Positions 26,854-30,399 of a stretch of 33,102 nucleotides of DNA are shown here, one piece after another. The position numbers and the translations under genes were made by a program. Source of the stretch: Candidatus Uhrbacteria bacterium (GTDB lineage: Bacteria > Patescibacteriota > Patescibacteriia > JACQRZ01). The notes under the pieces were generated by a model. That model was given only the letters and a program-made list of their open reading frames with translations, made no database searches and had not been told where the DNA came from. The stretch spans positions 21,590 through 54,691 of the forward strand of contig JAHFHK010000002.1 in the NCBI GenBank assembly GCA_023246955.1, read 5' to 3'. How positions within the stretch are numbered: position 1 is the stretch's first letter; each line of letters opens with the position of its first letter.

Positions 26854-26977
26854 GGGCTTTGTAAAATCGCGCCTTTTTGCTTCACGGGCACCCGTCGAAT
26901 CCACTCAACGTATAGCCCATACGTTTCCTGGATTCGACAGCCCGTTCAACAAAAATTCATCGATTTTCCAAGAGCCC
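26854..26977 (+). ncRNA. Structured intergenic element, copy A
   Basis: It starts two bases after the rpoC stop and is clearly homologous to 30281-30399. Helices: P1 26854-26860/26971-26977 continued by AAAATCG 26863-26869/26961-26967; P2 ACGGGC 26884-26889/26940-26945; P3 GTCGAATCCA 26894-26903/26929-26938, perfect; P4 AACGTAT 26907-26913/26919-26925. Loops such as CCACTCAACGTAT are shared with copy B. Base differences in P2 and most of P3 preserve pairing, which supports a selected RNA (or DNA) structure. It may be a 3'-UTR element, a processed RNA or a mobile palindromic repeat. No strong T run follows, so a simple terminator is less likely. Confidence 0.75.
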
Positions 26978-27012: not shown

Positions 27013-27789
27013 ATGGAGGAGGTACTTCATAACTTAGGTTTTAGCGATAAGGAAGCGCGGGTCTACATTGCATTTCTTGCTGTAGGTCCCGCTTCGGTGC
27101 AGGATATCGCCAGCAAGACTGGTATACAGCGCGCAACACTGTATGGCGTTTTGGAATCTCTCAAGAAAAGAGGCGTGCTCCGCGCCCTCTATCAGTCACA
27201 TCGCAAGGTTTTTTCCGTTGCTTCCCCTGATGTTCTTGCGCGTACTTTGGCTGATGAAAAGAAGCGTCTTGAAGCGCAAGAGGTATCGCTTTTGACGATT
27301 ATGCCTATGTTACAGGCACTTGAGAAGCAGGAGCAGAGTCAAGGGGAGCGGGTGATGCTCGGAGAGGGTGAGTATTCGATACGTAATGCGTGGGGAGATA
27401 TAGGGAAGCGTGCAGAAAAAGCCGTGATGGAGGTTATTGTCCCGTCTCGTGGCATGCAAGAGGCTTTTTTTGCTGATAGGCAGAGTGTTATTGGGTATAC
27501 CTCGCGTATTCAGGTTCGTCGTATGTATATCGCTCCCCGTGAATCGCCCTTTATGCCTCGCAAAGATGATACACAGGAAGTCCGTCTCTACGATACAGAG
27601 GCACAGTTTCCCTTGGGCACCGAATGGGTACTCGGAGAGGGCTTTTTGGTGAGTATTATCCACGAACCATTTCCTCGCGTATATTGGCATGAGGATTCTA
27701 TTTTTGCAGGGGGAATACGGGGAATGTTTGAGGTTTTGTGGAGAGCTTCATTGACCGCATCAGACAGCATACCCCTTGACAAACACTAG
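27013..27789 (+). CDS. TrmB-like transcriptional regulator
   Basis: 258 residues. The N-terminal winged helix (about 1-75) reads LGFSDKEARVYIAFLAVGPASVQDIASKTGIQRATLYGVLESLKKRG (split here across its helices), the typical TrmB-family DNA-binding domain. Next come a charged helix (about 80-110) suited to dimerisation and a C-terminal domain with VMEVIVPSRGMQEAFF and a final GGIRGMFEVLW. TrmB proteins in archaea sense sugars. CPR members of this family are common and mostly unassigned, so the ligand is unknown. It sits between structured element A and the predicted small RNA. The stop codon TAG (27787-27789) lies in the spacer of that RNA's promoter. Confidence 0.85.
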   Translation: MEEVLHNLGFSDKEARVYIAFLAVGPASVQDIASKTGIQRATLYGVLESLKKRGVLRALYQSHRKVFSVASPDVLARTLADEKKRLEAQEVSLLTIMPMLQALEKQEQSQGERVMLGEGEYSIRNAWGDIGKRAEKAVMEVIVPSRGMQEAFFADRQSVIGYTSRIQVRRMYIAPRESPFMPRKDDTQEVRLYDTEAQFPLGTEWVLGEGFLVSIIHEPFPRVYWHEDSIFAGGIRGMFEVLWRASLTASDSIPLDKH

Positions 27790-27804
27790 AAAGTGTGGTA
27801 TAGT
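27776..27804 (+). promoter_or_regulatory. Consensus promoter of the predicted small RNA
   Basis: TTGACA (27776-27781), a 17-base spacer and TATAGT (27799-27804) preceded by TGG. It is the best-matched promoter in the window. The start is predicted near 27811. Confidence 0.8.
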
Positions 27805-27810
27805 GTCATC

Positions 27811-27900
27811 ATAAAGCGCTTCATTCTTGGTAGGACTATCTCTCTCCTCGTGTCTTTTTCACAAAAGACATTGGTCCTATCGAGAACGGGGCGTTTTTTG
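27811..27900 (+). ncRNA. Predicted ~90-nt structured small RNA
   Basis: The predicted transcript starts at the base of a long stem. 27813-27836 pairs with 27874-27897 in about 24 consecutive positions with one A-C mismatch and several G-U pairs. Inside lies an unpaired pyrimidine-rich stretch (27837-27850, TATCTCTCTCCTCG) and an 8-bp hairpin, TGTCTTTT 27851-27858 with AAAAGACA 27863-27870, loop TCAC. The 3' arm ends in a T6 run (27894-27899), so the same stem acts as terminator. ftsK has a separate promoter downstream, so this is likely an independent RNA. It has no signal recognition particle RNA signature and is about half the size of 6S RNA. Confidence 0.65.
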
Positions 27901-27911
27901 CTTTTGTGCTC

Positions 27912-27941
27912 TTGCCTATAGATGTGTAAAAACGCTATACT
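27912..27941 (+). promoter_or_regulatory. Promoter of ftsK
   Basis: TTGCCT (27912-27917), an 18-base spacer and TATACT (27936-27941), without the usual TG extension. It lies after the small-RNA terminator and 58 bases before the ftsK ATG. Confidence 0.5.
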
Positions 27942-30280: not shown

Positions 30281-30399
30281 CCTCTGTAAAACCGCGCCTT
30301 TTCATTTCATGGGCGCCCGCTGATCCCACTCAACGTATCAGTATACGTCTCCTTGGGCTCAGCAGCCCGTTCAACGAAAATGCATCGATTTTTCAGAGG
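30281..30399 (+). ncRNA. Structured intergenic element, copy B
   Basis: It begins three bases after the ftsK stop and ends 12 bases before the -35 of the next gene. Helices match copy A: P1 CCTCTG 30281-30286/30394-30399 then AAAA/TTTT; P2 ATGGGC 30309-30314/30365-30370; P3 GCTGATCCCA 30319-30328/30354-30363, nine of ten paired; P4 ACGTAT 30333-30338/30343-30348. Unpaired blocks CGCGCCTTTT, CCACTCAACGTAT, CCCGTTCAAC and CATCGATTTT are conserved with copy A. The orientation relative to the flanking genes is the same in both places. Confidence 0.75.

Follow-up and report, generated by a model that had tools for sequence, protein, structure and literature searches.

The DNA considered here is a 33,102-nucleotide window from a Candidatus Uhrbacteria genome of about 0.99 Mb, and a short stretch of it upstream of ftsK is predicted, from its sequence features, to be an independently transcribed small RNA gene. 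A sigma-70-type promoter with 11 of 12 matches, TTGACA-17-TATAGT, lies on the forward strand at 27776-27804. Its -35 box (27776-27781) lies within the final codons of the TrmB-like gene upstream, a 17-nt spacer follows, and the -10 box (27799-27804) is preceded by TG; the same arrangement stands before the homologs in two related genomes, G009 and G003. With the start placed from the -10 box and the end from a T run, and in agreement with the homologs, the RNA would extend over about 89 nt, from 27811 to 27899 on the same strand. Outside this gene, a second promoter-like site recognised by its motif, TTGCCT-18-TATACT (27912-27941, forward strand), precedes ftsK and has a counterpart before ftsK in G009 (TTGCCT-17-TATAAT), which bears out an earlier, sequence-only reading of this DNA in its claim that the element is not simply the ftsK leader.

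The region 27776-27900 folds at -47.5 kcal/mol (z -7.03), and none of 200 dinucleotide shuffles was equally stable. In the 89-nt RNA, a 5' arm at 27813-27838, supported by covariation as well as by folding, pairs with a 3' arm at 27872-27897 to form a 25-bp rod with one A-C mismatch. Between the arms lie an 11-nt single-stranded tract, UCUCUCUCCUC (27839-27849; mean unpaired probability 0.998), containing the family-wide core CUCUCUCCUC (27840-27849), and then a 9-bp apical hairpin with a UCAC loop (27850-27871), in which two of seven pairs show two-sided changes among three family copies. No base opposite the tract is unpaired in the fold of the 89-nt RNA, so the opening is one-sided. A T6 run (27894-27899) closes the 3' arm, and T runs are also found after family copies; the whole rod with its T6 is, on this model, likely to be the intrinsic terminator of the RNA. 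A terminator scan did not flag this end because it accepts loops of 3-8 bases only. The sequence-only reading had described a consensus promoter and a rod of about 90 nt ending in T6, and both descriptions proved accurate.

The stem alone is weak evidence, since equally stable hairpins are common in this genome: over the 805 kb scanned, a 95-nt window reaches -41 kcal/mol or lower at 28 intergenic loci, and many of these loci are copies of dispersed palindromic repeats. The case rests instead on conservation of the tract and of the structure. A dispersed palindromic repeat of about 85 nt, TTTTTGTTGAACGGGC...GGAAACGTA...TACGTTGAG...GGGTGCCCGTGAAGCAAAAA, occurs twice in the window, both times on the reverse strand (26866-26960 and 30291-30385); the same 805 kb holds 12 copies by a strict pattern and 14 by a loose one, and the searched part of G009 holds none. 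A second palindromic repeat, GGTCTTTACTGCATTCCCCTTCGGC...GGCGCCTCAGGAGAACACAGTAAAGACC, is found between genes at L351, L354, L361, L370 and L381 of the same genome.

Relatives were graded as same family, class or phylum by their kinship labels. A DNA similarity search found no homolog in 56 relatives, the window copy being the sole match in 57 genomes, and conservation was therefore sought through structure and gene order. When the rpoC-ftsK region was folded in same-family genomes, a copy emerged in G009 between rpoC and ftsK, with an identical 11-nt bulge and a different stem. A pattern search added the copy in G003, where the downstream gene is not ftsK. All three copies have a TTGAC-N17-TATAGT promoter, and 10 of 29 pairs show two-sided changes among them, a signal that is abolished by sliding the partners. 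In a fourth family member, G001, the tract is again part of a rod, whose hairpin lies on the opposite side. The sequence-only reading had made its case depend on the stem being conserved in close relatives, and this holds in part: a structured copy can be recognised in four of the 11 same-family genomes and in many families farther away, but in none of the other seven same-family genomes, so that the RNA is either dispensable or diverged there.

A model built from the three same-family sequences (R1) matched two further copies in other families, both in longer rods; its weak matches at L021, L022, L024 and L025 lack the tract and were dismissed as chance hairpins. Of 381 class genomes, 109 contain the exact 12-mer ATCTCTCTCCTC, many more than contain a reversed control. 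When 128 sites were folded, those with strong structure and a completely unpaired tract stood apart from random ones; roughly one in two exact pattern matches fell in unstructured or coding sequence and was set aside. In an alignment of 16 copies made with MAFFT, 24 of 39 pairs show two-sided changes, a level reached in none of 500 shuffles. A further model, R2, matches 63 of the 381 class genomes at E <= 0.01, and some 25 more genomes that escape R2 carry a structured tract, which brings the total to about 85-88, a figure that leaves a few weak R2 matches (G023, G030, G112) uninspected. When 41 sequences are aligned, two-sided changes affect every one of the 39 pairs (401 cells), and the covariation score is 0.694 versus 0.209 in shuffles (0 of 500), but because this alignment was fitted to the model, 24 of 39 is the more cautious figure.

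Many families more distant than that of the window genome carry the RNA. Beyond the class it is sparse: model R3 matches nine of 380 genomes in a phylum-wide sample, two of the nine lying outside the class, and all nine matches have CTCTCTCCTC. Among 106 tract matches in viral contigs, 80 were checked and none is in such a rod. Copies across the class usually measure 110-160 nt and usually occur once per genome, while those of the window's own type are near 90 nt; the earlier description of the RNA as half the size of 6S RNA thus fits the own type and fails for most relatives. The search for homologs and covariation that the sequence-only reading had proposed has, then, yielded copies in G009, in G003 and then across the class, with two-sided pair changes, and together with the promoters and T runs these homologs support its suggestion of a new small RNA having its own promoter and end. 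Judged from these comparisons, the locus appears to belong to an undescribed RNA family that is class-wide in ultra-small bacteria, probably the Paceibacteria among the Patescibacteria, and rare beyond the class.

The tract is the most constant part of the family. The core CTCTCTCCTC is nearly invariant, with only nine bases in one copy, and copies retrieved independently of the CUCUCUCCUC pattern still retain that sequence, in full or at least over its last nine bases. The R2 matches that lack the search pattern read GGCTCTCTCCTC, AAACTCTCTCCTC, GATTCTCTCTCCTC, AAAACTCTCTCCTC, TAAACTCTCTCCTC and AAATTCTCTCCTC, and the structure model places the tract in the pattern-free copies L165, L170, L172, L173, L177, L179 and L180; the models reward the tract, however, so copies lacking it would be missed. 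Two to four unpaired As usually stand 5' of CUCUCUCCUC: among 57 copies, an A occupies the second position before the T in 51, the third in 45 and the fourth in 38, an enrichment that the search pattern does not force. The helix on the 3' side usually begins directly after the last C of the tract. The one-sided pyrimidine bulge, which the sequence-only reading had singled out, is indeed the key feature, kept across copies whose stems compensate. In several copies (L121, L122, L135, L138) a DnaA-box-like sequence, TGTGGATAA, lies shortly 3' of the RNA.

The outline of the molecule is much less constant. In most copies the apical hairpin lies 5' of the tract; it lies 3' of the tract in the window copy, in G009 and G003, and in L020, L023, L064, L091, L092, L113 and L120. 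The last of these, from family f46, shares the GAGCA/TGCTC helix and the lower stem with its relatives, but its hairpin is on the opposite side. Hairpins flank the tract on both sides in L093 and, by inspection, in L094 and L110. Stem sequences vary freely, with compensation. Because the hairpin can occupy either side of the tract or both, the conserved element is a tract displayed between two helices, and no fixed outline is shared. A change of topology of this kind, about a single-stranded element that stays fixed, would be missed by sequence searches or by searches with a single model.

We also considered the identities of nearby genes, with representatives of each neighbour class confirmed by Pfam and the rest assigned by sequence resemblance. 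Copies adjoin rpoB (L152, L154, L156, L165, L170, L322), ftsK (L047, L168, L322), the HTH_25/Glucodextran_B gene that comes next after ftsK in the window (L039, L173, L177, L179, L318), recA (L170) and efp (L172). These neighbours fit the order seen in the window, rpoC-RNA-ftsK-HTH-recA-efp. Other neighbours are found at L043-L045, L059, L319 and L320, and copies differ in orientation with respect to the adjoining genes. Of 67 copies, 33 have a promoter in front of them (1.8% in shuffles) and 43 have a T run within the next 90 nt (22% in shuffles).

Comparison with described RNAs gave no counterpart. Neither the window nor 20 family loci match any Rfam 15 family at the gathering score, and a relaxed threshold yields chance matches only; the same scans recover rRNA, tRNA, LOOT RNA and a group I intron in these genomes. 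The 6S model (RF00013) does not match the window at either threshold and finds nothing in the window genome or in 56 relatives, while control genomes are positive, so the check for a canonical 6S RNA elsewhere in the genome, also proposed by the sequence-only reading, came back negative. The two RNAs have in common a rod, an unpaired middle region, an own promoter and, usually, a single copy per genome. They differ in that the bulge of the new family is one-sided and invariant in sequence, and its polarity is not fixed relative to the long arm. A 6S bubble is open on both strands, whereas the bases opposite the tract in the window copy are all paired, and with no covariance match either, kinship with 6S, of which the stem had loosely reminded the sequence-only reading, finds no support. 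The Ms1 RNA of Actinobacteria resembles 6S and was recognised by its gene order, being beyond the reach of sequence search [PMC9130861]; it belongs to another phylum and has other neighbours, and is likened here by description only, polymerase binding by the present RNA being hypothetical. Searches of the open literature, subscription papers being outside their scope, found no paper on such an RNA.

The Candidate Phyla bacteria are very diverse, and to our knowledge little has been learned of their regulatory RNAs. The rod holds the invariant single-stranded CUCUCUCCUC between two helices, and we propose that the RNA may act in trans, offering this tract to a single conserved partner, a protein or ribonucleoprotein, perhaps as a scaffold or sponge. 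Such a partner is suggested by exclusion, because the tract is invariant while no conserved complementary RNA was found. We give an even chance to this reading of the locus as an independent small RNA of an undescribed family, acting in trans on a conserved protein or ribonucleoprotein through its tract, and a protein or ribonucleoprotein partner seems to us about as probable as all other readings combined. Hfq (PF17209) and the RNA-binding domain of Rho (PF07497) were each found in none of 57 relatives, with positive controls, and this absence from the genomes searched rules both out as partners; with neither protein encoded, the RNA qualifies neither as an Hfq-dependent small RNA nor as a rut-like, Rho-binding one. 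The KH domain of KhpA-B occurs in 55 of the 57, and KhpA-type KH proteins might be one candidate, a guess from co-presence in genomes; KhpA is near-universal and present also in several genomes without a detected RNA, so that its presence does not discriminate. In our estimate it could equally well prove true or false that a family displaying a ten-base strand, with a hairpin that has moved several times, serves a core regulatory ribonucleoprotein in cells without Hfq, Rho or a recognisable 6S RNA.

UCCC-motif RNAs of Firmicutes are small RNAs with C/U-rich anti-Shine-Dalgarno seeds. Like them, the present RNA has a single-stranded pyrimidine tract able to pair with GAGGAG; unlike theirs, the tract is invariant across many families and lies within a rod, not in a loop or tail. 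The RNA might accordingly be a base-pairing regulator whose CUCCUC blocks translation at Shine-Dalgarno-like GAGGAG, as C/U-rich seeds do elsewhere in bacteria, and the window genome does use AAGGAG and AGGAGG ribosome sites. We consider this possible but rather unlikely, as target enrichment was not found in the tests run, which cover translation starts and parts of two genomes with approximate start calls. Against 800 start regions, shuffled pyrimidine seeds pair at least as well as the 11-mer, and 195 ortholog pairs between the window genome and G009 share seven sites at -9 kcal/mol, versus 10.4 for shuffled seeds. Family genomes show no conservation of the exact 10-nt complement GAGGAGAGAG at their start codons, and the extended complements GGAGAG and AGAGAG are not clearly enriched near starts; the pairing of CUCCUC with G/A-rich mRNA sites, as first suggested, is thus unsupported. 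Hfq is absent as well, though pairing is possible without it. As for rRNA, the 16S of the window genome and a 23S stretch of G009 contain no full complement of the tract, the best being 9 of 10 with G-U pairs, in 23S.

Less probable still is a functional stand-in for 6S or Ms1 that binds RNA polymerase. The rod, the length of 110-160 nt in most relatives, the usual single copy, the frequent position beside rpoB or rpoC and the failure to find 6S in the 57 genomes would all suit it, and Ms1 sets the precedent of a polymerase-binding RNA that escapes sequence search [PMC9130861]. Against this, the opening is one-sided, with nothing unpaired opposite the tract in the window copy, and copies with the hairpin 5' of the tract and those with it 3' have opposite tract polarity with respect to the long arm, which is a poor fit to a promoter mimic whose template strand is fixed; the rpoBC neighbourhood, moreover, may be plain synteny. 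A cis element, either the terminator of the upstream gene or an ftsK attenuator, would explain the location between the TrmB-like gene and ftsK and the T6 end, but we think it very improbable given a promoter before the stem, the further promoter-like site for ftsK after it, the different gene following the G003 copy and the varying orientation to neighbours. Long intergenic hairpins and palindromic repeats abound in this genome, yet the chance that the element is merely another of these is negligible: it is single-copy by DNA search and matches neither repeat, and family-wide covariation and the invariant tract exclude chance. The family offers a defined RNA with a ten-base element that does not vary, together with covariance alignments and gene neighbours that are known, and the expression, binding partner and function of the RNA are therefore directly testable.

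Other structured RNAs of the genome were compared as well. The apical domain of SRP RNA (GGAA loop, AGCA side) is absent from the window RNA, and a search of part of the genome did not turn up its own SRP RNA. LOOT RNA (RF03000, an Rfam family of unknown function) is likewise a structured RNA of this genome, but it occupies separate loci and has a separate Rfam model, which the window RNA does not match; two copies are found, at L347:2252-2372 and L369:5542-5660. A group I intron match is present at L360:1281-1466, adjoining a tRNA-like sequence.
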